Of a stretch of 33,413 bases of DNA, positions 174-11,668 are shown piece by piece. The notes beneath the pieces were generated by a model. It ran no database searches. It had not been told where the DNA came from and saw nothing but the letters and a program-made list of their open reading frames with translations. Positions within the stretch are counted from its first letter, which is position 1. Each line of letters begins with the position of its first letter. The translations under genes and the position numbers were made by a program. Source of the DNA: Minisyncoccota bacterium (GTDB lineage Bacteria; Patescibacteriota; Minisyncoccia; Phycocordibacterales; PALSA-1337); the NCBI GenBank assembly GCA_028713005.1, contig JAQTPC010000001.1:1-33413 (forward strand). The letters run 5' to 3'.

Positions 174-475
174 TTGCGACGCGGGTTGAGGATTTTCACC
201 TCGGCATGAGGTGAGACACGAAACAGCTTTGGTGGCGGTTGAAACCGCACCGGCTTGTCGAACCTTGTTTTGAAGTCCCGCACCCGCTGGTTCATGATGA
301 CAACCGCCGAACAATCATTGACGCGAATGACCCGGCACAACCGTTCGTTGAATCGGAAGACATCCCCGGCCCGCAACCGGAAGGGATGTTCCGCAACCTG
401 CCAGATGATGCCGAATTCGGCTTGGTTCGGATCGTGTCCGTTGCGCTTCTTGCCGGGTGGTGGTTTCTTTTTCAT
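170..475 (-). CDS. Hypothetical protein (101 aa)
   Basis: Intact ORF; start overlaps the upstream gene stop by 4 nt (472-475), consistent with translational coupling. Confidence 0.6.
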   Translation of the reverse strand: MKKKPPPGKKRNGHDPNQAEFGIIWQVAEHPFRLRAGDVFRFNERLCRVIRVNDCSAVVIMNQRVRDFKTRFDKPVRFQPPPKLFRVSPHAEVKILNPRRK

Positions 476-801
476 AACCCGAAGTCCTCCATCGTAGAAG
501 CAATGCCGTCCTCGTCGTCACCCAACAATTCGACGATGCCAGCTTTCATGGCGGCACGGTCGGGATCGGGCTTGGCATCCTTGGGGCAACAGGGACACCG
601 CATGACATTGAAGATCGAGCTGCCGAACTCATAGCCAACGACCTTCAATTTTTCCCGATAGCGGTCGAGCAGCCTTGATTTCGGTGATAATTCTGTCCAC
701 GCCTTCGCTTCGGTGTGGGACAGGTCGGTTTCAAAGATGGCGTCGTGCCGCAGGTGATATGTATCCCACGGCTCGCCACAGGTGGTGCAATGAACATCCA
801 T
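472..801 (-). CDS. Cys-rich (zinc-ribbon-like) hypothetical protein; start re-assigned to ATG at 801
   Basis: MDVHCTTCGEPWDTYHLRHD...RCPCCPKD; CxxC pairs; AAAGGAGA Shine-Dalgarno just upstream of 801. Confidence 0.65.
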   Translation of the reverse strand: MDVHCTTCGEPWDTYHLRHDAIFETDLSHTEAKAWTELSPKSRLLDRYREKLKVVGYEFGSSIFNVMRCPCCPKDAKPDPDRAAMKAGIVELLGDDEDGIASTMEDFGL

Positions 802-880
802 GATGAATCTCCTTTCGGTGTGTGGTTGAAATGAACCCTGAATACCCAACGTGAAGAATGCCATGCCGTCACGAGGAGGA

Positions 881-913
881 AGGAGACGGGTAAACTTGCC
901 GAGAGAGGCAAGT
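881..913 (-). promoter_or_regulatory. Repeated hairpin+tail element, copy 1
   Basis: Minus-strand read: ACTTGCC TCTCTC GGCAAGT TTACCCGTCTCCT; same motif at 3857, 4806 and 10366. Confidence 0.75.
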
Positions 914-970
914 GACAAATCAAATCTGAATCAGAAAATGTAGAAATTGACGCGCCCCCAACAATGAAAG

Positions 971-1636
971 ATGATTTTTCCCATGCTCAAGGGCACTCAA
1001 ATTATTCAGCAAATTCAAATGGTCTTTGAAATCTGTGGTGGGTGGTGGTCAGCCATGAGCGGGGCCATTTCAATCCCATTCGGCTTCATCGCGCTTTTTG
1101 CAGAGGGAAATCCCAGGACCTATTTTGCGGCGCTTGCCTTTATTGCCCTCTGGGTTTTCGCCATCGGCGTTGTCCGAAAGAACTACAAGATACTGGTGAT
1201 ACAGAAACCTGAAAGGACTCGGGCGTTGTTGACAAAGATGGTTGACAGCATTCGCTCTGAAAAGCCCATCAGGACCGGATCTGTTGCCAATGACTATTGG
1301 AGAAGCATGCAGCCTGCCGATCCTATCGGTGCGCTGATAAAATTTTCAGATGAGATTCAAAGTGAAGACGATCTCAAATGGCTCTGCGGGGAATTCATTA
1401 AGCTTGGATATGTCAGCCCTTTCAAGCCATTCGAGCCGCAGTTGGGAAAAGATGTTGCTTGGCTGCCCATATTAAAGGAAGCGCGACTGAACCAGCATGA
1501 GATAAAAGATCAGGGCCGGCTTCTTCAGTTCCTTGCCTTAACTTGGACAGGCAAAGAAATGTGGAAACAGGGGCAAGCGCGTGTGACGGCAAACCCGACC
1601 CTCGAAAATGAAACCGTTTCGGTGAGGAACGAATAA
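971..1636 (+). CDS. Hypothetical membrane protein (two predicted N-terminal TM segments), divergent cargo gene
   Basis: 221 aa ORF with hydrophobic stretches (AMSGAISIPFGFIALFA; YFAALAFIALWVFAIGVV); followed by a terminator. Confidence 0.6.
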   Translation: MIFPMLKGTQIIQQIQMVFEICGGWWSAMSGAISIPFGFIALFAEGNPRTYFAALAFIALWVFAIGVVRKNYKILVIQKPERTRALLTKMVDSIRSEKPIRTGSVANDYWRSMQPADPIGALIKFSDEIQSEDDLKWLCGEFIKLGYVSPFKPFEPQLGKDVAWLPILKEARLNQHEIKDQGRLLQFLALTWTGKEMWKQGQARVTANPTLENETVSVRNE

Positions 1637-1637
1637 A

Positions 1638-1662
1638 AGCCCCGCGACTGAATCGCGGGGCT
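1638..1662. terminator. Bidirectional terminator-like hairpin between convergent genes
   Basis: AGCCCCGCGA-CTGAA-TCGCGGGGCT perfect 10-bp stem. Confidence 0.75.
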
Positions 1663-1667
1663 ATGAA

Positions 1668-2411
1668 CTAAAGAACGAACTCTTGCTGTTGCAACGACGA
1701 TTGAATCCGCTCCACTTCAAACGGCGCGGGCGGCTCTCCCTGTTCCTTCGCCTCCGGCGTCTGTGGCCGTAAGACATAGGGAAGCCAGGGAGCGATGTAA
1801 TGGATGTTCGACCACGCTGCCCAATACTCACTGGACAGCGTGTTGCCGTGGATGACTCGTGTGGGAATACCCCACAGTGTTGTGTTGATGAACGCCATGT
1901 CGCAAGCCGTGCGATTGATGTCAATCGCCGTCACCCGCAACCGGCGTCTCACCTCCGGCGAACACGCTTCACCCACCGACAGAATCATCGCTCCCGCACC
2001 GCAGGCCGGTTCACAGACAGTGATCGGCCCTTCAGTCGGCAATGATTCCATATCGCCCATCGTCATTTTTGCCATTAGGTCGCAGACGTGTTTCGGCGTG
2101 TGAAATTCGCCGTTCCATTTTTGTCCCTTCGTCGAGATGGCGCAATCCATGTAGTAGCCGCCCAAAATGTCCTCGAACGGTTTGGATTCCATCTCGCTCA
2201 CCAGTGCGCCAAGTGCTTTCGCGAACAATTCCAAGCCAGCTTTGTCCCATTGTTTGGCTTCCTCCAGATATTCCGCCTCGCGCGTCTGCGCGGCGACCGC
2301 ACAGGCGGCGAGACGGATGAAGGCGTCAAAGACACGGCGCGTGTCGTGACGGCGGAACAAGGGTTCAAGGATGGTTCGGAAATCGCTCAGTGGCGATTTC
2401 CGGGCACTCAC
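1668..2411 (-). CDS. N6-adenine DNA methylase-like protein (HsdM-fold, motif I present)
   Basis: EFHTPKHVCDLM and CEPACGAGAM (motif I); GTG start at 2411 overlaps upstream stop (GTGA); no NPPY/NPPF motif seen. Confidence 0.65.
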   Translation of the reverse strand: MSARKSPLSDFRTILEPLFRRHDTRRVFDAFIRLAACAVAAQTREAEYLEEAKQWDKAGLELFAKALGALVSEMESKPFEDILGGYYMDCAISTKGQKWNGEFHTPKHVCDLMAKMTMGDMESLPTEGPITVCEPACGAGAMILSVGEACSPEVRRRLRVTAIDINRTACDMAFINTTLWGIPTRVIHGNTLSSEYWAAWSNIHYIAPWLPYVLRPQTPEAKEQGEPPAPFEVERIQSSLQQQEFVL

Positions 2412-2728
2412 AAAGCGCCTTCCGGTATTGGTTCCTGAAGTTCTTGAAGCACCCGCTCTATTTCCCCCGTGGTGATTTCCCATGACCGATGTGGCAAAGC
2501 CGCGATGACCGCCCATTTGAAGCGTTGGTGGAAGCTTACCGCCTGTTCGTCATTCCTGCAATGATCGGCCAGAATGGCAAGGGCCAGTTGGGCCGGCCCG
2601 CTGCCTCCATAGCCCCATTCAAACCCCGTTGGACTGTGATTCCACAGGTCCAGCCGGGGATTCAAGCGGCGTCCGTCCACCGTGACGATGACGGCATACC
2701 CCTCGCGCCGGCCTGAATACTGTTTCAT
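2408..2728 (-). CDS. DUF6166-like protein
   Basis: NHSPTGFEWGYGGSGPAQLALAILADH is characteristic of DUF6166 proteins; 4-nt overlap with the primase gene. Confidence 0.75.
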   Translation of the reverse strand: MKQYSGRREGYAVIVTVDGRRLNPRLDLWNHSPTGFEWGYGGSGPAQLALAILADHCRNDEQAVSFHQRFKWAVIAALPHRSWEITTGEIERVLQELQEPIPEGAL

Positions 2729-3762
2729 TTCAGGCCCTCCACGATGTCCGCCAACTCGTCGTCGGTGAGATGTTCGGGTTCCATGTCAGGCCGTTCAAAC
2801 TGATGCACCCGGACGTAACAGAACTTGGACAGACGAACCACGATGTCCTCTCGCCCGGTAATGCCCGCCTCATTTTCATCGAGCATGATGATGATGTGAC
2901 TGTCACGCTTGACGTAGTGCCGGATCATTTCCTCCTGCACTGAAGACATGCTGCTGCCCATGAGGGCTACGACTTTCTTGTAGCCGTGGTCATGGATTTT
3001 CATGCAATCGAAGAAACCCTCGACGATGAGCAATGGTTTGTCGGCTGGCTCTCTGAACGCCCGGTCAATGTTGAACAACTCCTGCGATTTCTTGAATCCC
3101 GGCGGGAGCTTGTATTTTTCCGTGTCCTTGTCCGGTGGTTCACCGGGGAAGCGACCGGCATACGCCACGACTTCACCCTTGGGGTTGTGGATGGGAATGA
3201 CGATTCGGCCGGTCATCATGCCTTTGGAGCAGAAACCGATTCCAAAATCTATGATGGTTTCCTCGGACAATCCGCGCTCAACGAGATACGGATGTTTTCG
3301 GTCCAGCTTGTCCAACCGAAACTTCAAAGGCGTATTGGGCTCAGCCTTTTCTGCTGGGGCCGGTGATGTGGCCGTCCGTGTCGCCGGCCTCGGCGCTGGC
3401 TTGGATGTCGGTGTAGCTTCATCGGTTCCGCTTTCATCGTGGTCTGCGGACATGGCCTCGGGATCGAGGTTGAACCATTCGATGGCTTTGAGTGCCGCCG
3501 CATGAATGCTCACATCTTCCATCTCGGCGATGAAATCGAGGACGTTCCCGCCGTGCTTGCACTCGCTAAAGCAATTCCAGATATTCTTGCTGATGCTGAT
3601 ACGGAACTGCGTCGGGTTGCTGCCCCGATGAATCGGGCACGGGCCACTCAAGCTGTCAGTGCCACGCTTGAACTTGTCCAGGATGCCGTAGTGCGTGAGC
3701 ACCTGCTCCATGCTGATTGCTGTTTTGATGGCTTTGAAGTCAACGTAAGGTGTTTTAGACAT
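2725..3762 (-). CDS. DNA primase-like protein (CHC2 zinc finger + Toprim)
   Basis: CPIHRG..FRIS..KNIWNCFSECKHGGNVLDFI (CHC2), LLIVEGFFDCMK and IIIMLDENEAG (Toprim); start at 3762 with AGGAGA SD. Confidence 0.85.
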   Translation of the reverse strand: MSKTPYVDFKAIKTAISMEQVLTHYGILDKFKRGTDSLSGPCPIHRGSNPTQFRISISKNIWNCFSECKHGGNVLDFIAEMEDVSIHAAALKAIEWFNLDPEAMSADHDESGTDEATPTSKPAPRPATRTATSPAPAEKAEPNTPLKFRLDKLDRKHPYLVERGLSEETIIDFGIGFCSKGMMTGRIVIPIHNPKGEVVAYAGRFPGEPPDKDTEKYKLPPGFKKSQELFNIDRAFREPADKPLLIVEGFFDCMKIHDHGYKKVVALMGSSMSSVQEEMIRHYVKRDSHIIIMLDENEAGITGREDIVVRLSKFCYVRVHQFERPDMEPEHLTDDELADIVEGLK

Positions 3763-3853
3763 GATTCTCCTATTGGTATTTGGTTGTGATTGAACTACTG
3801 GCGGTTCGGAAATGAACCGCATTCACAGGCCATGCTACCGCCGGGCAGAAAAA

Positions 3854-4774
3854 TCAGGAGACGGGTAAAGTTGCCGAATCTGGCAAGTCGAGAAGCGGAG
3901 ACAATTCGCCAGTTTTGCCATTACGAAAGACGGGGGAGAACAAATCTTTTTCCAAAACTGATGTGTCGGCAAAAAGGAACAGGCCATGGCCACGCTTTAA
4001 TTTGGAACACGCATCAAGAAGTGACTGCACTCTCGCGGCAATGGTCGTGACGGTAAGAACACGGAAACGATGAATACCAAGCTGGCGCACATGAACCTTG
4101 TTGCTCCATGTTGATTCGTATGCGAGCAACTTGCGACGAAAGGATGTTTGAAAAAGATTTTTGCGGACAACAGGCATCGTCCCCCGGTCAGCCTCAAGGA
4201 AGAAGTAGGCCCGCTCTGGTCGGCCTGCGCGGTCGGTGAATTCCAAGGCAAACACGCGGTCGGGGATGACACCGAGCTTCATGCCACCCTCAATCTTCAC
4301 CCACCACTGGAAAGGCTGTTTGGCTGCGGGAAGATCCAGTTCGTCTTCGTAGAGCAACCGAACACCATGTTTCAGACAGGCCCGTTCAATGGACAGCATT
4401 GTCTCGGACACCAGCAGCGCATGTTCAAGAAATACCTGGCCCACCGTCCGGTTTTTCTCGCTCCACAAATGACTGTCGCCGAATTCCTGCTTCAACAGCA
4501 TTCCACCCTTGGTGCTCAAGCCATATACGATGGGGCGGGTGCCGGGCTGGTCATATCTTTGGAGTTGGACGCGGGGCCGCTCCAAGAATCCGTGATGATA
4601 CAGCAACTTCAATCGCCGCAGCACTTGCAGGGAACTGCTGCCAGTCAGGGCGATGATCTGAAGGGAATTCAAAAAGCGATGCCGGTGAACGAGTCGGATG
4701 ATGGTGCGGTCGCGCCCGGTCAATTGCATCGGGGCGACGGCGGCGCGCTTGAAACGGGGAAGTCTTTTTTGCAT
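3854..4774 (-). CDS. Replication-relaxation family-like winged-helix protein
   Basis: N-terminal wHTH: LTGRDRTIIRLVHRHRFLNSLQIIALTGSSSLQVLRRLKLLYHHGFLERP..., then a C-terminal domain typical of mobile-element replication-relaxation proteins. Confidence 0.7.
   Translation of the reverse strand: MQKRLPRFKRAAVAPMQLTGRDRTIIRLVHRHRFLNSLQIIALTGSSSLQVLRRLKLLYHHGFLERPRVQLQRYDQPGTRPIVYGLSTKGGMLLKQEFGDSHLWSEKNRTVGQVFLEHALLVSETMLSIERACLKHGVRLLYEDELDLPAAKQPFQWWVKIEGGMKLGVIPDRVFALEFTDRAGRPERAYFFLEADRGTMPVVRKNLFQTSFRRKLLAYESTWSNKVHVRQLGIHRFRVLTVTTIAARVQSLLDACSKLKRGHGLFLFADTSVLEKDLFSPVFRNGKTGELSPLLDLPDSATLPVS
3857..3888 (-). promoter_or_regulatory. Repeated hairpin+tail element, copy 2
   Basis: Minus-strand read: ACTTGCC AGATTC GGCAACT TTACCCGTCTCCTGA (one stem mismatch); upstream of the primase gene. 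Confidence 0.75.
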
Positions 4775-4805
4775 CCCGCCACAATGACGGGGATGAGGAA
4801 AAGGC

Positions 4806-4838
4806 GGGAGACGGGTGAACTTGCCAATGGTGGCAAGT
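4806..4838 (-). promoter_or_regulatory. Repeated hairpin+tail element, copy 3
   Basis: Minus-strand read: ACTTGCC ACCATT GGCAAGT TCACCCGTCTCCC; about 30 nt before the replication-relaxation gene start. Confidence 0.75.
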
Positions 4839-5111
4839 TACTACTCAGCTTTTTTATTAATTTTCCCTACAAATCATACGTTCAATGAGTTTTCTCGCTT
4901 AAAAACTACACTAATTCTTGTTTTTTATTGCCATTGAAAAACAGTTTTGCTAAAGTGATTAGACCTCGGAAGGCCGCATGGTGGAATGCGGTGGTGGGGA
5001 AGCTATGATTTATGTGTTTTTGGCACATGAATTAAGCTGGTTCCAAGCCATAACGAATATGCCAGTCGTGGTTTTGGACAAGTTACATAATCGCAAAATA
5101 GAAGTTGTATT

Positions 5112-5339
5112 ATGAAAACACCTAGAAAGCGGACTTCGTTAGTAGTAGTTAATGCGTTGGTTGCAGTTTTGAAAGATTGCAAAAACTTGGTAGTAAGTTC
5201 CTACAGGCTTGTAAAAGCCACACTGGCATTCTTGCCCAAGCATCTCCTAGTCTCCTTGCTAGTCTCCTTAATACTGGTTGCGCTTGCCGTATTGGAGCGC
5301 CTCATTATACGGGGAGATTTTGACCGCTGGATCGCGTAG
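5112..5339 (+). CDS. Small hypothetical protein with one TM segment
   Basis: 75 aa: basic N-terminus then HLLVSLLVSLILVALAVL; followed by a terminator-like hairpin. Confidence 0.45.
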   Translation: MKTPRKRTSLVVVNALVAVLKDCKNLVVSSYRLVKATLAFLPKHLLVSLLVSLILVALAVLERLIIRGDFDRWIA

Positions 5340-5363
5340 TCAATCTGCTCTGCTGATTCCAAT

Positions 5364-5397
5364 CCCCGTTGCTGCCTTGGTGGCAACGGGGGTCTTT
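5364..5397 (+). terminator. Terminator-like hairpin
   Basis: CCCCGTTGC-N10-GCAACGGGG followed by GTCTTTT. Confidence 0.6.
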
Positions 5398-5615
5398 TGG
5401 ACAAAAGTAAACCCACCCTGTTTTGGCCAGAGTGGGTTCGGTGAACCCTTATTGGGGCGTGATAGAAGGCACGCCTCAATAAGTCGTTCTAAATCAATCT
5501 AGCACGATGCGTTTAAGCCTGCAAATGGCAACGCCCTGTTTCTTTTGAAAACAGGTCAAAGCATTTTTACGAATTGCAACGGCCACGGTTAAGTAATTTG
5601 CATAAAATTGGCTGT

Positions 5616-6902
5616 CTAGTCAACTACTAACAGTTCAAGCCACCCTTTCAACTTGGCTTCAATCTCACCACGCGGCATCGCAAACCGCCCACGCGACCGG
5701 GCAATGATTTCGTTTCTCCGGCCGGTGTAGCTTTCCAGCGGCGGCAGCATTCTTGACCGGAATGGCTCTTGGTTCGCGCCTTCGACGAGCAGCTTCACTA
5801 CGGCTTCATATCGCTCTAAGTCGGCTAGGGCCGTGGCCGAAATCGTTTTGCCGAATTCCTTCGTCATCAATTCCGCATCGGGATAGCCGATGCGGAAGGC
5901 AATCAGTGTTCCCACGTTGCCAAACACCGCCTGCCGGATCGTTTCAGGTAGTTGATCAATGTATTGATGAGACAACGTAAGGCAGAGCCGGTATTTGCGT
6001 GCTTCTGCCAGAATCGAGGCAAAGGCATCCGTCGAAAAGTTCTGGAACTCGTCAATGAACAGGTAAAAATCCCGGCGTTCGGATTCCGGCTTGGTGGAAC
6101 GCGCCATTGCACCAAGCTGGAACTGCGTCACCAAGAGCGATCCAAGCAGGTTTGCCTTGTCGTGCCCGAGCTGGCCTTTGGACAGATTGGCGATGAACAG
6201 CCCGGCGTTGTTCATCACATACGGAATATCAACCTTGCTCTGAACCTGTCCCAGGATGTTGCGGATGACGGGATTCAGCAGGAACTGACCGATTTTGTTC
6301 TGTATCGGCGCAATGGCTTCCTGTTTAAAGCGCTCGTCGTAGCTCTCATATTCTTCGACCCAAAACGATTTGATGAACGGGTCTTTGATCCGCTCCACCA
6401 CGCGGGCACGGTAGTCCCGGTCGGTGAGCAGCCGATTGACGCCCAACAGTGTTTCGTCCCGGCAATCGAGCAAAGCCGACACGGCATTGTAGAGAATGTA
6501 TTCAAGCCTCGGTCCCCACGAATCCCGCCAGATGCCCTTGAACGCTGCCACAATGCCGGATGCGACTAGGTGTCGGCTATCAGGTGGGACATCGTGAATC
6601 ACATTCAAGCCGACGGGAAATTCGATGTCGCCCGGATTGAAATACACGACGCCATCCGCCCGTTTGGGCGGAATGTGATTCAACAACTCCTCGGACAAGT
6701 CCCCGTGTGGATCAATGACCCCCACGCCATGCCCCAAGGCGATGTGCTGCAAAATCAGATTTCGCAGCAGGGTCGTCTTGCCGGAGCCGGTTTTCCCGAT
6801 GATATAGATATGCTGGCGCTCATCCACGGCGGCAATGCCAAAGGGCTGGGGTTCGCCCCAGCCATGCCGTTCGCCGATGGTGATGTGTGGTTGATTGTTC
6901 AT
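5616..6902 (-). CDS. Type IV secretion system DNA-binding ATPase / TraD-VirD4-like coupling protein
   Basis: Walker A IIGKTGSGKTTLLRN, GVIDPHGDL, Walker B FYLFIDEFQNF, LSHQYIDQL; probable start ATG 6902 (MNNQPHITIGERHGW). Confidence 0.85.
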   Translation of the reverse strand: MNNQPHITIGERHGWGEPQPFGIAAVDERQHIYIIGKTGSGKTTLLRNLILQHIALGHGVGVIDPHGDLSEELLNHIPPKRADGVVYFNPGDIEFPVGLNVIHDVPPDSRHLVASGIVAAFKGIWRDSWGPRLEYILYNAVSALLDCRDETLLGVNRLLTDRDYRARVVERIKDPFIKSFWVEEYESYDERFKQEAIAPIQNKIGQFLLNPVIRNILGQVQSKVDIPYVMNNAGLFIANLSKGQLGHDKANLLGSLLVTQFQLGAMARSTKPESERRDFYLFIDEFQNFSTDAFASILAEARKYRLCLTLSHQYIDQLPETIRQAVFGNVGTLIAFRIGYPDAELMTKEFGKTISATALADLERYEAVVKLLVEGANQEPFRSRMLPPLESYTGRRNEIIARSRGRFAMPRGEIEAKLKGWLELLVVD

Positions 6903-6965
6903 GGTGCCAGAACCAGCCACCGCACTCCTGCCGCAATGAACAATCCGGCCTGTGGTGGATTTCAT

Positions 6966-7490
6966 ACGGACGCGCCGGCAGAAGTGCTTTGGGGCACGCC
7001 GGCGAGGTAATGAGTGGCTGGTTGTGAAATCCGAACGGGGAAGCCATCGTAGCATGGGGCTCGAAAAACGGACGCGCCGGTTGGCGCGGCTGTTTCAAAA
7101 GAGCGCCTAGTCAGGCGACGCTTTCTCCCTACGAGTAGTGTCTTGACCAGTCTGGTCGTGACGCTCGTTGCCCCGTCGTCCATTCCACGCTTCCGGCGTG
7201 AACCGGTCGCGTGAGCGGACTGGTGGTCGGGGCGATGCCCCTCCTTCCAAAACCAGTCCCCCAACGTGTCGGCGGGTAAGGGCGCTAGCCCGTCCCGACC
7301 GACTGACTTCTTGCTGGCTAAAGGACGACGGTTAGTGTCCTTTAGCCCGGCTAGCCCGTAGGGAGAAAGAAGTCAGTCGGGCGGTAGCCGACGACACGTT
7401 GGGGAGGTCGTGGTGCGGCGGTTAAGCCGTGCCAGTCAATCGTCACGGCGCTAGCCCTCACATATCTTATATGTCGCCCGTTAAAACGGG
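6966..7490. other. Hairpin-dense non-coding region, candidate origin of transfer or replication
   Basis: At least eight short perfect inverted repeats plus a large nested palindrome; adjacent to the T4SS ATPase; no convincing coding ORF. Confidence 0.5.
7259..7404. repeat. Large nested inverted repeat
   Basis: Arms CCCCAACGTGTCG (7259-7271)/CGACACGTTGGGG (7392-7404); CCGACTGACTTCTT (7299-7312)/AAGAAGTCAGTCGG (7367-7380); GGCTAAAGGAC (7316-7326)/GTCCTTTAGCC (7337-7347). Confidence 0.9.
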
Positions 7491-7568
7491 GTGAAATTGC
7501 CACTTGCGCCATCTGGTTTGCGCTTATTTCTTTACATCACCTGCCTATTGGATTTTAGTAACCGCGGT

Positions 7569-8321
7569 ATGCGAACAATTGACGATATTTTGAATTTTCG
7601 CGGGGACATTCCGCCATTTCTCGTGCATCTCACCAGGGATTTTGAAGACATGAACGCCAAGGCGAGACTCAATAAAATTTTAGAGGAACAAAAGCTGCGA
7701 CCAAGCGACAACAAGATCAGTGACGCCAAATTTGGAATACATAATCTGGGCTGGGCGCAGGAAAAATTAACCCGCTATTTTGGGGCAGTATGCTTTACCG
7801 AAACCCCGCTGAACGAGATTCATTGCCTGCTTGAAATTCAATACCGCAACGTCAATCTACAGCCTTATGGGTTGGTATTCCTGAAGGAAAAGTTGAAGGA
7901 AAAATCGGTCGGGCCGGTATTTTATTTCAATAATGAATACCGGGACAAGACCAGTGTCATTCGCAAGCTGTGTGAGTTGATTGAAAGCGATGATGTAACC
8001 GACCAAGAAGCGGCGGCGCGGCTTTTGCCAATGATCAGTAACTTTGGAAATAAAATCACGCCGATAAACAACATGGCGCAGGATGGCAGAGTGGACTTTT
8101 TATGGGAACGAGAATGGCGGCTTGCCAGTATTTACGCTCCCCTTAATTTCGATTTGGCCACGGACGTATTCATCGGATTGTGTCCGCACACTGAAATCGA
8201 GGAATTTGAACTGGCATATCCAAATGTTATGTTTATTGATCCGCGTCGAAACACAAAATGGTATGCCACAAAACTGATTGAAGCCCGCCAGCGGCTTAAT
8301 CTTAAGGTTTCCGTCGTATAG
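7569..8321 (+). CDS. AbiGi/DUF2971-like protein (possible abortive-infection or toxin-antitoxin component)
   Basis: PFLVHLTRDFE..., RYFGAVCFTETPLNEI..., VFYFNNEYRD..., FLWEREWRLA motifs; ATG 7569 (a GTG at 7491 is also possible). Confidence 0.5.
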   Translation: MRTIDDILNFRGDIPPFLVHLTRDFEDMNAKARLNKILEEQKLRPSDNKISDAKFGIHNLGWAQEKLTRYFGAVCFTETPLNEIHCLLEIQYRNVNLQPYGLVFLKEKLKEKSVGPVFYFNNEYRDKTSVIRKLCELIESDDVTDQEAAARLLPMISNFGNKITPINNMAQDGRVDFLWEREWRLASIYAPLNFDLATDVFIGLCPHTEIEEFELAYPNVMFIDPRRNTKWYATKLIEARQRLNLKVSVV

Positions 8322-8339
8322 CCAGCTCCCGACAACGGT

Positions 8340-9200
8340 ATGGTCCAGATTGATCCCATAGAATTCATCGGCGCATGGAAGTGCCTAGAGCAAGTCATAA
8401 AATTATCCGGAGAAAAACGAGGGCAGAAGGCCACCAAAGATGAAGCTGAATTTTTGATCAAAGCACTCATCGAGGTGCATTACATATCGGGACGGCTGGG
8501 CTTCCGCCAATCCGTAGAATTATGCAATCGGTTGCTTGACCAGCTAAAAGATCCGGCATGCCATAGGATATGGTCTTCGGCAGGCATCGGACGTTTTAGT
8601 TATACGATGCCAAAAGAGATTCCATTGCCGGATTTTGAAAGCGTCTATTGGCAGGTCGAAGGTGTTGCTTCTGAAGTCAGAAAGGAAATGGCAGCAATTC
8701 GACTTGCAGTTGTCTTTGGCGGAAAAATGAAAAATTTGGATCAAGAAAAACCGTTTGGCGATTCTGTTTATCAAAATTTCCCCGGCGCAAGAAGCGACAT
8801 CAAAGATGCGTATCAATCTCTGTCTGTCGGATTGAACACTGCTGCGATATTCCATTTGATGCGCGTCACGGAACATGGAGTGCGTGCGCTTGCCAAAGCA
8901 CAGACCCTAAATCTCACGTTTGCTTGTCCGATAGAGTATTCGACCTGGGGACAAGTGATTGGCGCGATTGACGACAAATTAAAACAGTTAAAGAAAGGCC
9001 AGAAGTCAAATGCCAGGGAAGAGGAATTGCAGTTTTACAGCGAATTAGTCGCGGAAACCCGCGCCTTTCAAATTCTGTGGCGCGATCCCGTGATGCACGT
9101 CCGTTCAAGATTCGACAGACCGGACCAAGCAGAGGATGCTTTCCAGCATGTTCTCCGCTTTATGACGGCATTATCCAAACGGGTTTCTGAAGCCACCTGA
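8340..9200 (+). CDS. Hypothetical protein with C-terminal RX4H motif (HEPN-like)
   Basis: 286 aa; ...ETRAFQILWRDPVMHVRSRFDRPDQAEDAFQHVLRFMTAL; R codon 9081-9083, H codon 9096-9098; 18 nt after the previous gene. Confidence 0.5.
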   Translation: MVQIDPIEFIGAWKCLEQVIKLSGEKRGQKATKDEAEFLIKALIEVHYISGRLGFRQSVELCNRLLDQLKDPACHRIWSSAGIGRFSYTMPKEIPLPDFESVYWQVEGVASEVRKEMAAIRLAVVFGGKMKNLDQEKPFGDSVYQNFPGARSDIKDAYQSLSVGLNTAAIFHLMRVTEHGVRALAKAQTLNLTFACPIEYSTWGQVIGAIDDKLKQLKKGQKSNAREEELQFYSELVAETRAFQILWRDPVMHVRSRFDRPDQAEDAFQHVLRFMTALSKRVSEAT

Positions 9201-9234
9201 AATCCAGTAATCTTTTCTCGAAGTGCCAAATTTC

Positions 9235-10218
9235 CTAGAACTTAAATTTGAGTTGTAATGTGACCGCGTGAGTAAAATAGGATGAATTGAAGGCGTCGTA
9301 AGAATAGCCAAGATCGAGTGAAGCTTTATTCCAACTGTATATCACGTCCCCGCCGAACCGCGCCCAATCCTGATGTGTCTCGCTTTGTCCAGGAGCGGTG
9401 CTGAAATTGATATTACGCAGCCACGTTCCGTAAGTAGAAACACCCCATTTTGGCGAAATTTTATATGCCAATCCGAGTTTGACCGCCACATTTCCTTGAA
9501 ACGTGGACGTGGTTGTTCCGAGCGGAACATTTACGGTTTGATTTTGGTTGTAAGTATAAGACGGCGACAAAGAAACTTGCAGGTTTGTCGTCGCATCAAT
9601 GGCATAGTTGGCACCGCCTCCCCACGCCCAACCCGACATTTGGCTGAAAGCAGGCTTGGCGCCCAACCCGGAGCTGCTGTCGGTTGCCGTATATCCGGTT
9701 TTGCCAAAGACAGACAACTTGCCGCCGAAAAGATTTGTCGTCACATCATGCCCAATTTGAAGCGATGGATTGATAGATATGGATTGAGAGGTGTCGGAGC
9801 CAGAAAGTGACTCTACGCTGCTGCCGCTGACGGCGAGGCTAGGCGACAAAGTGAAGCCAAACGGAGCACTGAACATCGTGCTTAATGTTCCGCTATTCTT
9901 CTTTGTGTGTGAACCATTTTGAAAAGAATGCGTGAAGCCAAACCCATATTGAACTGAAAAGGTTTTCAGTGACCACTGTTCCCATTCACTTTCATTCGTC
10001 TCGGTCTGGGGTGGATTCAAATTCGGATTTTGCATCAATAATATTTGTGAGGGACTCGGGGCAGGACCGGATATAACTTTATTTTGCAGGAGGAATTGCT
10101 GGTTCCACTGATCCGCTAAATCAGGGGTGAAATCCTGTGCTTTGCAACGGATGACCCATAGATTGAAGACAACTAGGCATGTGATTATGATGCGACAATT
10201 TCCATTGTTCGTTTTCAT
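9235..10218 (-). CDS. Secreted outer-membrane beta-barrel-like protein
   Basis: Signal peptide (IIITCLVVFNLWVIRCKAQ), alternating amphipathic strands, C-terminal ...AVTLQLKFKF ending in Phe; probable start ATG 10218. Confidence 0.65.
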   Translation of the reverse strand: MKTNNGNCRIIITCLVVFNLWVIRCKAQDFTPDLADQWNQQFLLQNKVISGPAPSPSQILLMQNPNLNPPQTETNESEWEQWSLKTFSVQYGFGFTHSFQNGSHTKKNSGTLSTMFSAPFGFTLSPSLAVSGSSVESLSGSDTSQSISINPSLQIGHDVTTNLFGGKLSVFGKTGYTATDSSSGLGAKPAFSQMSGWAWGGGANYAIDATTNLQVSLSPSYTYNQNQTVNVPLGTTTSTFQGNVAVKLGLAYKISPKWGVSTYGTWLRNINFSTAPGQSETHQDWARFGGDVIYSWNKASLDLGYSYDAFNSSYFTHAVTLQLKFKF

Positions 10219-10365
10219 TGTAATGAACCCTTTCTGTTTGTTGTTGTTGGCTACCTCTAATTCCAATGAGTCCCTTGGTATGAAGAATTCACCCTCGAGC
10301 CCCATACACAGAAGCCTTTATAGCCGCCCTCTAGCATGAATCAAGATAATTTTTCGCATAAGTAA

Positions 10366-10397
10366 ACTTGCCTGATTTGGCAAGTTTACCCGTCTGC
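10366..10397 (+). promoter_or_regulatory. Repeated hairpin+tail element, copy 4
   Basis: ACTTGCC TGATTT GGCAAGT TTACCCGTCTGC. Confidence 0.75.
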
Positions 10398-10431
10398 ACC
10401 ATTCCGACTGCAATGGTTACTCTGCGTGTAT

Positions 10432-10653
10432 ATGAAAAAAATATACGCAAAACCAAATACGTCCCTCGTTCCGCAACCTCGTTCGTTTACCCGGCGCATT
10501 AAGCAAATGTTGGCCAGTGCTCGCAAGCGTCAATATCCAGTTTTTACGGGCGACTTAAAACAAGAGGTCATACAGTTGTTAAAAGATCTCGAACATAGAA
10601 TTGAAATCCTTGAGCGTGAAAAAGCGAGTGAGACAAAGCGTGGCCAGAAGTAG
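10432..10653 (+). CDS. Small basic/coiled-coil hypothetical protein
   Basis: MKKIYAKPNTSLVPQPRSFTRRIKQMLASARKRQYPVFTGDLKQEVIQLLKDLEHRIEILEREKASETKRGQK; downstream of element copy 4. Confidence 0.5.
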   Translation: MKKIYAKPNTSLVPQPRSFTRRIKQMLASARKRQYPVFTGDLKQEVIQLLKDLEHRIEILEREKASETKRGQK

Positions 10654-10662
10654 GCGATCAAA

Positions 10663-10773
10663 TCAGTTCTTGTCCGGCATCCCAAACTCATTTTTGAAGT
10701 GAGCGTAGATCAGCGCGGCTGCACGCTCAGCATTACGCAATGATTCTCTAACTTCGTCCAAGTCCCGTAGCAA
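10663..10773 (-). pseudogene. Possible truncated C-terminal gene remnant
   Basis: Open frame LLRDLDEVRESLRNAERAAALIYAHFKNEFGMPDKN* with no ATG and an in-frame upstream stop at 10795-10797. Confidence 0.35.
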
Positions 10774-10779
10774 GATTGA

Positions 10780-10807
10780 TTGACATCTTTTGACTCAAGA
10801 GTAATAT
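10780..10807 (+). promoter_or_regulatory. Sigma70-type promoter
   Basis: TTGACA - 16 nt - TAATAT, upstream of the peptidase gene. Confidence 0.6.
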
Positions 10808-10846
10808 CACTACTAGGCAGCAGAAACCTTAACAAAAGGAGATCAT

Positions 10847-11668
10847 ACGAAAACTACATTATTCATCATCGTTAGTGCAATACTGACACTCTGTGTAGTA
10901 TCAGTATTCGCACTAGAAACCAACACTACAACTTACGTGTATGCGACTTGGGTCAATCCGGGTCACACGGCAGAAGAGGTGGTCATTTCAAATGCTCTGG
11001 TCATCATCGAAAAGCAAATTGAAGCAAAAACGGGCTTTAGATTCAACACCAACAGTCACGTGCAAGTTAGTTTATTGCATGAATTATACGATGGCGTTGA
11101 TCCGCAACGTCAGATTGCATCTCGATATGTCATTGAAACGGAGACCTTACAGTTTCCGATATCACTAACGTATGATTTCAATCGTGACCACAAGCCATCG
11201 TTGATGAACTCTGATCCACGTGTTCTCGCAAATAACCCAAGTTTCAACGACTTGGCATGTCATGAGCTCGGACATGTTCTCATGGATCAAGTCAGTCGTA
11301 GAAATGGTCTTGGTCCGTTTTTTACAGTTGATTATTTCAACCTCTGTTCTCGGTCACATCAGTTTGGTATCAATATCATGGCCGAGGGAACGGCGACATA
11401 TTTTCAACGAAAAATGCATCCAACCGGGGAAACTTTGTCACAGTTTGTTTTTTCACCATATGACATTGATACGCCAACCATGTTTGATTATGTTCTTATG
11501 GTGAACCAAGGCGGTCAGTGGGTTGTCACTGACATCCTGGAAAAACATGGTGAACGTGGACTTATCTGGATGCTCAAAAATCCACTCAATGTTCTGGGGC
11601 CGATACGGACAGCTGTTACTGATTATCGTGCACGAGCTCTACATGAGCTTGCAAAAGAGCGTTGGTAA
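10847..11668 (+). CDS. Secreted zincin metallopeptidase-like protein; likely N-terminus at a non-canonical ACG
   Basis: HELGHVLMDQ (HExxH) and MAEGTATYF; in-frame signal peptide (T/M)KTTLFIIVSAILTLCVVSVFA upstream of the ORF-track GTG (10937); AAAGGAG 5 nt before ACG. Confidence 0.65.
   Translation, partial: TKTTLFIIVSAILTLCVVSVFALETNTTTYVYATWVNPGHTAEEVVISNALVIIEKQIEAKTGFRFNTNSHVQVSLLHELYDGVDPQRQIASRYVIETETLQFPISLTYDFNRDHKPSLMNSDPRVLANNPSFNDLACHELGHVLMDQVSRRNGLGPFFTVDYFNLCSRSHQFGINIMAEGTATYFQRKMHPTGETLSQFVFSPYDIDTPTMFDYVLMVNQGGQWVVTDILEKHGERGLIWMLKNPLNVLGPIRTAVTDYRARALHELAKERW

Follow-up and report, generated by a model that had tools for sequence, protein, structure and literature searches.

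A palindromic promoter motif shared by genes of a putative mobile element in a Minisyncoccota genome and its relatives, with an XRE-type protein as candidate regulator

The subject of this analysis is a palindromic motif that occurs four times in the first 33,413 nucleotides of contig JAQTPC010000001.1 of a Minisyncoccota bacterium (assembly GCA_028713005.1); this whole stretch is referred to here as the window. Comparison with related elements strongly supports the view that each copy is the upstream half of a regulated promoter, i.e., a double-stranded DNA operator together with a promoter part. With moderate confidence, the promoters bearing the motif are further proposed to form one regulon of the element, under a small XRE-type protein (XRE1) as the most likely trans-acting factor and probable activator. 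All claims made here rest on comparative sequence evidence. What was read from it directly is the motif with its promoter architecture, its confinement to elements, its link to XRE1 and its co-variation with the subgroups of XRE1; that XRE1 binds, that it activates and does not repress, and that the window is served by an XRE1 of subgroup B are what we infer.

A promoter motif of fixed architecture

An earlier note on the window had described four hairpins with a one-sided tail, and all four were indeed found in the orientations given there (Table 1). The loop measures six nucleotides in each and differs in sequence from copy to copy, and the one stem mismatch reported for copy 2 was also seen. 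The asymmetric tail is present as well, although the T described as its first base is in fact the last base of the stem. The distance to the start codon, described as about 30-95 nt, measured about 80, 94, 32 and 34 nt from the tails of copies 1 to 4, respectively. Beyond what the note had recorded, a -10 box lies at a fixed distance behind each copy. When the full pattern was searched with up to 3 mismatches in the 840,691-bp source genome, four matches were obtained, all in the window, and the reversed control gave 0; another contig of this genome (G000:C25) carries two further copies with a different tail.

A position matrix was trained on the related loci, with strong-match levels of 18 bits for counting and 22 bits for co-occurrence; it retrieved 81 copies above 18 bits, and 0 in shuffled sequence. 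Alignment of 117 non-redundant motif instances revealed a common architecture, consisting of the palindrome TTGCC-N6-GGCAA, the block CGTCT, 22 nt, and a -10 box of the sigma70 type. The pattern NAnnnT was found at motif position 52 in 74/117 instances and at position 51 in 37/117, against about 5 per position elsewhere, and a TATAAT-like hexamer occupied the -10 place in 63% (7% in the control). TTGACA was not enriched at the -35 place (15% versus 13% in the control), and there was no conservation upstream of the palindrome in the aligned instances. The CGTCT block is nearly as conserved as the palindrome itself (C28 in 117/117, T29 in 113/117), as would be expected if the two parts of a promoter read by a dedicated sigma factor were CGTCT and the -10 box, the palindrome being an extra site. 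However, the gene clusters of the motif loci include no recurrent sigma-factor gene, and to our knowledge the 22-nt spacing exceeds that of known sigma -35/-10 pairs; we regard this explanation as very improbable.

Transcription starts about 7 nt after a -10 box, and +1 is here predicted near motif position 64, which would centre the palindrome near -54 and place CGTCT at -39 to -35. Starts of open reading frames (ORFs) indeed peak at +64 and +66 of the motif, and the relaxase genes of the window and of loci L012, L018, L019 and L030 begin with an ATG exactly at +64; their messages should therefore be leaderless. Several messages from motif promoters are predicted to be of this kind, including two in the window, those of the relaxase and of a 73-amino-acid protein. 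ORFs of at least 100 codons starting within 200 nt lay on the tail side in 77/106 cases, with 28 in the opposite direction.

In the relatives, the same promoter stands before genes for relaxase, coupling protein, primase, ligase, ArdC, methyltransferase, recombinase and XRE proteins. For the primase of L013, L016, L045 and L012, the site occupies the same upstream place as copy 2, which in the window overlaps the 3' end of the relaxase gene. In a set of 31 host genomes, motif copies gather on contigs of the elements (G109:C51, G112:C357, G112:C165, several in G115, and G125:C241), and the reversed control gave few matches. An operator with a co-conserved promoter part was one of the two readings offered in the earlier note, and it is borne out by conservation before orthologous genes and by the fixed-distance -10 box. 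Nor is the motif randomly placed or a generic repeat of the host, either of which the note would have taken as a refutation, as its copies cluster on element contigs.

The palindrome as a DNA site

The second reading in that note, a 5' untranslated region (5'UTR) hairpin acting as RNA, is suggested by the window copies, in which the stem is perfect and the loop varies in sequence but not in length. It did not hold, however, against the predicted transcription start, which lies about 64 nt beyond the palindrome's first base, at the point where the relaxase genes, and two genes of the window, begin. At stem positions 2-6 there were 503 Watson-Crick, 15 GU and 30 AC combinations, i.e., no bias toward G-U; compensatory swaps of the C-G to G-C type were almost absent, and no RNA family in Rfam matched the motif. 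With no excess of G-U among the stem mismatches and the palindrome located upstream of the start, an RNA element is very unlikely here. The pattern of stem variation looks like that of half-sites for a DNA-binding dimer. A single-stranded DNA promoter of the Frpo kind was also considered and rejected; the palindrome alone folds beyond its shuffles, and the mean pairing of the -10 box was 0.36.

XRE1 as the candidate regulator

XRE1 is a protein of about 111 amino acids, and its gene carries the motif about 77-110 nt upstream on 14/15 contigs of motif-bearing genomes, the exception being G110, with a weak match only. A motif-independent search of 293 genomes gave a similar picture, in that 8/13 XRE1-family genes of the newly found genomes had the motif 92-116 nt upstream; the five genes without it were the first members of three tandem pairs and two others. 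The motif also tracks XRE1 from locus to locus. At fourteen loci that carry a relaxase of the family but not XRE1, no motif exceeds 22 bits, and contigs with XRE1 and its RuvC-fold neighbour (described below), though lacking relaxase or coupling protein, still carry the motif.

These observations bear on the 306-amino-acid winged-helix protein of the window, which the earlier note had favoured as the ligand and which turned out to be a PF13814/MOBC-type relaxase. A motif copy lies in its own promoter, its N-terminus is winged-helix-like, and relaxases can regulate their own operons, all of which would suit a protein that binds the sites and regulates the element. Nonetheless, the motif does not follow the relaxase, and because of the motif-less relaxase loci and the relaxase-less contigs with motif, the XRE regulator is the better candidate; we consider the relaxase most improbable in this role.

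The sequence of the motif, moreover, varies with the subgroup of XRE1. Subgroup A is accompanied by G7/C12 and CGTCTT, and subgroup B, which has a few extra helix-turn-helix residues, by A7/T12 and often CGTCTCC (motif position 7 against subgroup, p = 0.0014). Spacer length shifts in all copies of a contig together, e.g., to 5 nt in 4/4 copies of L010, and individual elements have dialects of their own, such as L012 with its ACATGCC...TTTGCCCCCCTAC-like copies. Since the dialect of the window is B-like, we predict that an XRE1 of subgroup B is encoded past the left contig end.

The AlphaFold model of XRE1 had a pLDDT of 82.6, and its top structural matches were all XRE-type, with probability near 1 and E-values of 0.1-1; the nearest folds were ClgR, C.BclI, DdrO and P22 c2, at these weak E-values. 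Against Pfam, HTH_3 and HTH_31 matched weakly, HTH_3 below the cut-off. As modelled, XRE1 has the XRE helix-turn-helix fold. Its gene is followed, within 83 nt, by the same small RuvC-fold gene on 23/23 contig entries (22 distinct). The model of this partner matches RuvC resolvases (Foldseek E 4.5e-8), no Pfam family matched its sequence, and the first catalytic aspartate is kept in 4/21 sequences. The partner may take part in regulation.

It is to be noted that tandem pairs of XRE1-family genes, about 860 bp apart, occur in G174:C130, G174:C285, G311:C322 and G110:C84, with the motif upstream of the second gene only (weak in G110) and the RuvC-fold gene following it where checked. The catalytic aspartate is kept in the RuvC-fold proteins of the tandem pairs of G174:C285, G311 and G110, and in that of G327. 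At another locus (L187, G151:C17, 2175-8275), a Cas9 gene (1050 amino acids), accompanied by a repeat array and a probable Cas1 gene, directly adjoins the XRE1/RuvC-fold pair, and a gene for a serine recombinase lies on the opposite side.

Proposed mechanism and competing regulators

In the proposed mechanism, a dimer of XRE1 would bind the palindrome, and XRE1, alone or with the RuvC-fold protein on CGTCT, would replace the missing -35 contact and recruit RNA polymerase; it would act on its own promoter as well. A more far-reaching proposal is that XRE and the RuvC-fold protein without its catalytic aspartate form a complex that represents a new class of mobile-element master activator, whose regulon, in part leaderless, would span elements of several phyla and reach into a tiny-genome lineage, probably Patescibacteria. 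The palindrome would then be recognised by the XRE dimer, whereas CGTCT, as well as the contact with RNA polymerase, would fall to the pseudo-resolvase or to the complex. We offer this extension tentatively and rate its chances as rather low.

Several points weigh against activation by XRE1. XRE1 is absent from the window contig and was not found in the source genome, where only a gene of a second type, XRE2, was seen. The co-variation with XRE1 subgroup could stem from shared ancestry of the elements. Some motif loci lack XRE1 on the stretch examined, these contigs being short. Compared with a standard class II site, the palindrome, with its centre near -54, is placed somewhat farther upstream.

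XRE1 could also be the ligand and yet a repressor, the element being silent while integrated and loss of binding turning the regulon on, as with SetR in SXT. Many XRE proteins repress, the folds nearest to XRE1 include DdrO and P22 c2, and SetR, an HTH_3 protein with a leaderless message, represses SXT (PMC4542580). Here, however, recruitment fits better than blocking, because the operator is found on the upstream side of the core bound by polymerase, there is no -35 box and the -10 box stays uncovered; repression is an unlikely alternative, if one to be taken seriously.

Lastly, another element-encoded protein could read the site, chiefly XRE2. It is a live rival because motif promoters also precede XRE2 genes outside the source genome; those of G117 and G151, and that of the source genome (C25), start at or near +64. 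XRE2 is also the sole such regulator gene found in the source genome. On the other hand, XRE2 proper is present on three motif-bearing contigs as against 22 for XRE1, the motif dialect follows the XRE1 subgroup, and membership in a regulon does not make XRE2 its reader. We find XRE2 distinctly unlikely and retain XRE1 as the preferred factor. The XRE2 gene of the source genome is part of an islet (L184, G000:C25) bounded by the 3' end of tRNA-Ser(GGA) and its 20-bp direct repeat (2586-2605 and 5897-5916); the islet contains XRE2 and an OLD/AriA-like ATPase gene, with two motif promoters, and no recombinase was seen in it.

The element family

With the coupling protein of the window and one viral-contig relative used as a paired alignment, 80 genome loci were retrieved, of which the closest (66-86% identity) were mostly from Verrucomicrobia, chiefly subdivision 3 / Limisphaerales; scans with the relaxase as single-protein query found no relatives. 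The neighbouring genes in these loci encode PF13814 relaxase, primase, DUF6166, Cys-rich protein and an ATP-dependent ligase with a WGR domain, and further ArdC, an N6-methyltransferase, a serine recombinase and an XRE regulator. The gene order of the window, coupling protein-relaxase-primase-DUF6166, is that of L013, L018 and L019. By its gene content, the window element appears to belong to an integrative/mobilizable family with a MOBC relaxase, a VirD4-like coupling protein and, in the relatives, a serine recombinase.

PF13814 is the MobC relaxase domain, and the streptococcal IME_Class_8 elements combine a serine integrase, a PF13814/MobC relaxase and a VirD4 coupling protein (PMC5357655). 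This triad of mobility genes is shared with the relatives of the window element, and its relaxase and coupling protein with the window itself; IME_Class_8 differs in phylum, and the present family has a much larger gene set.

The exact motif pattern had no match in viral contigs, and the strict pattern had none in 99 relatives of the source genome. A looser pattern gave mostly isolated matches in these 99, with one clear element-type match, G043, a genome of the same family as the source genome, in which element fragments with four motif promoters lie on a 416-kb contig. At locus L204 of this genome (G043:C5), eight identical 37-bp direct repeats (CCTGCATAATAGTGTCGCAAAAAGGAGATTGTGCAAC) were observed at 858, 2953, 4462, 7372, 13356, 14796, 15773 and 16064. 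They separate units of 0.3-6 kb that resemble captured foreign DNA, several of which are fragments of these elements with motif promoters; the repeat was not found among 60 relatives searched, a set to which G043 did not belong.

Upstream of the coupling-protein gene of the window, at 7259-7404, there is a nested inverted repeat of about 150 nt with outer arms CCCCAACGTGTCG/CGACACGTTGGGG. It is kept in most related loci (L005:261-405 and more than 30 others), including loci without hairpin promoters, and is a candidate transfer origin for the MOBC relaxase. In 27 sequences, double-sided changes were seen in 10/33 predicted pairs, and the inner stem was almost without G-U; thus, the repeat suits folded DNA better than RNA. 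It had no match in Rfam.

The element in the window

Table 1. Motif copies, -10 boxes and associated genes in the window (window coordinates)
Feature	Position	Strand	Sequence or remark
Copy 1: palindrome and CGTCT block, putative upstream half of Cys-rich gene promoter	882..913	-	ACTTGCC-TCTCTC-GGCAAGTTTACCCGTCTCC
Copy 2: putative upstream half of primase promoter	3857..3888	-	ACTTGCC-AGATTC-GGCAACTTTACCCGTCTCC; one stem mismatch
Copy 3: putative upstream half of relaxase promoter	4807..4838	-	ACTTGCC-ACCATT-GGCAAGTTCACCCGTCTCC
Copy 4: putative upstream half of 73-amino-acid protein gene promoter	10366..10397	+	ACTTGCC-TGATTT-GGCAAGTTTACCCGTCTGC
-10 box, copy 1	855..860	-	CATTCT, motif position 53
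-10 box, copy 2	3832..3837	-	TAGCAT, motif position 51
-10 box, copy 3	4781..4786	-	CATTGT, motif position 52
-10 box, copy 4	10418..10423	+	TACTCT, motif position 52
Cys-rich 109-amino-acid protein gene, behind copy 1	472..801	-	
DnaG-type primase gene	2725..3762	-	CHC2 zinc finger and Toprim; start set from L007 relative
PF13814 MOBC-type relaxase gene, 306 amino acids	3854..4774	-	ATG at motif position 64, predicted leaderless
VirD4/TrwB-like coupling protein gene	5616..6902	-	Coupling-protein domains; query for finding relatives
73-amino-acid protein gene	10432..10653	+	ATG at motif position 66, predicted leaderless

The Cys-rich protein has a 72% relative that adjoins the primase gene in L007/L009. 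The primase gene itself is leadered, with a Shine-Dalgarno sequence of its own. The relaxase matched PF13814 at 70 bits (cut-off 25.3), and relatives of the 73-amino-acid protein with the same motif promoter are found in L027 and L030. No motif copy was recognised upstream of the coupling-protein gene in the window, although the relatives do have one there.

The contig measures 113,562 bp, with the window at its left end, and the source genome is 97.8% complete. The first ~10.7 kb have a G+C content of roughly 42-60% and element-type genes, the remainder being near 40%; at about 10660-10850, both G+C (about 53% to about 40%) and gene content shift, which marks either an assembly join or the element's right-hand junction. 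An outer-membrane barrel seems to be encoded at 9235-10305, which is odd for a tiny-genome host. This gene and the G+C drop near 10.7 kb would suit a window that is an assembly chimera, and this was considered; however, motif DNA is also found at the tRNA-Ser on another contig of the source genome, and element fragments on the 416-kb contig of G043. Because of these two findings, real transfer is plausible and a chimera less likely. No serine integrase, which the relatives have, was found in the window, which stops at the contig end.

Comparison with known systems

In the SetCD promoters of the SXT/R391 integrative and conjugative elements, a 19-bp site occupies the -35 place, no -35 box can be recognised, and activation is of class II (PMC4344509); the AcaCD regulon is that of IncA/C plasmids and of the islands that they mobilise (PMC4207636). 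The motif promoters resemble both in that a single short site recurs in front of numerous genes of a transferable element, for transfer, recombination and accessory functions, and adjoins a -35 place without a recognisable box. SetCD and AcaCD are, in addition, two-gene regulators encoded by the element, which the layout of the XRE1 and RuvC-fold genes recalls. They differ in site sequence and host phyla, and the many predicted leaderless starts set the present regulon apart; and SetC/SetD and AcaC/AcaD are FlhCD-like, whereas the present candidate is a non-homologous XRE and RuvC-fold pair. The regulon may thus work like those of SetCD and AcaCD but is not a member of that group, since XRE1 and its partner are not homologues of SetC/SetD or FlhC/FlhD.

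The restriction-modification controller protein C.Csp231I recognises the operator CTAAG-n5-CTTAG in its own promoter and has leaderless messages (PMC4824078). Like XRE1, such C proteins are small, have the XRE fold and are associated with a short palindrome in their own promoter. In the C proteins, however, it is the regulator itself that is leaderless, whereas here this is predicted for other genes of the regulon, and paired operators in one restriction-modification operon contrast with one palindrome plus CGTCT at many promoters. The XRE1 gene is not coupled to a restriction-modification operon, the RuvC-fold gene following it on all 23 contig entries. SetR of SXT, a 215-amino-acid protein that includes a LexA-like protease domain and has four operators close to its gene (PMC4542580), is likewise an HTH_3-type regulator of an integrative element with its own promoter as target, but XRE1 is much shorter and its candidate sites are spread over the element. 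Overall, the layout is of a known kind, i.e., a regulon of a transferable element with promoters lacking a -35 box, but the site and the candidate pair of regulators each match none of the systems compared. A limited literature search returned no account of this promoter code or of the control of transfer in these elements.

Significance

These results provide a promoter code and a candidate regulator for little-studied mobile elements of Verrucomicrobia and neighbouring groups. The code is usable for finding the genes of such elements, their cargo and their boundaries. Given the constant pairing of XRE with a pseudo-RuvC protein, one may also ask whether a resolvase fold has come to serve as a transcription factor.

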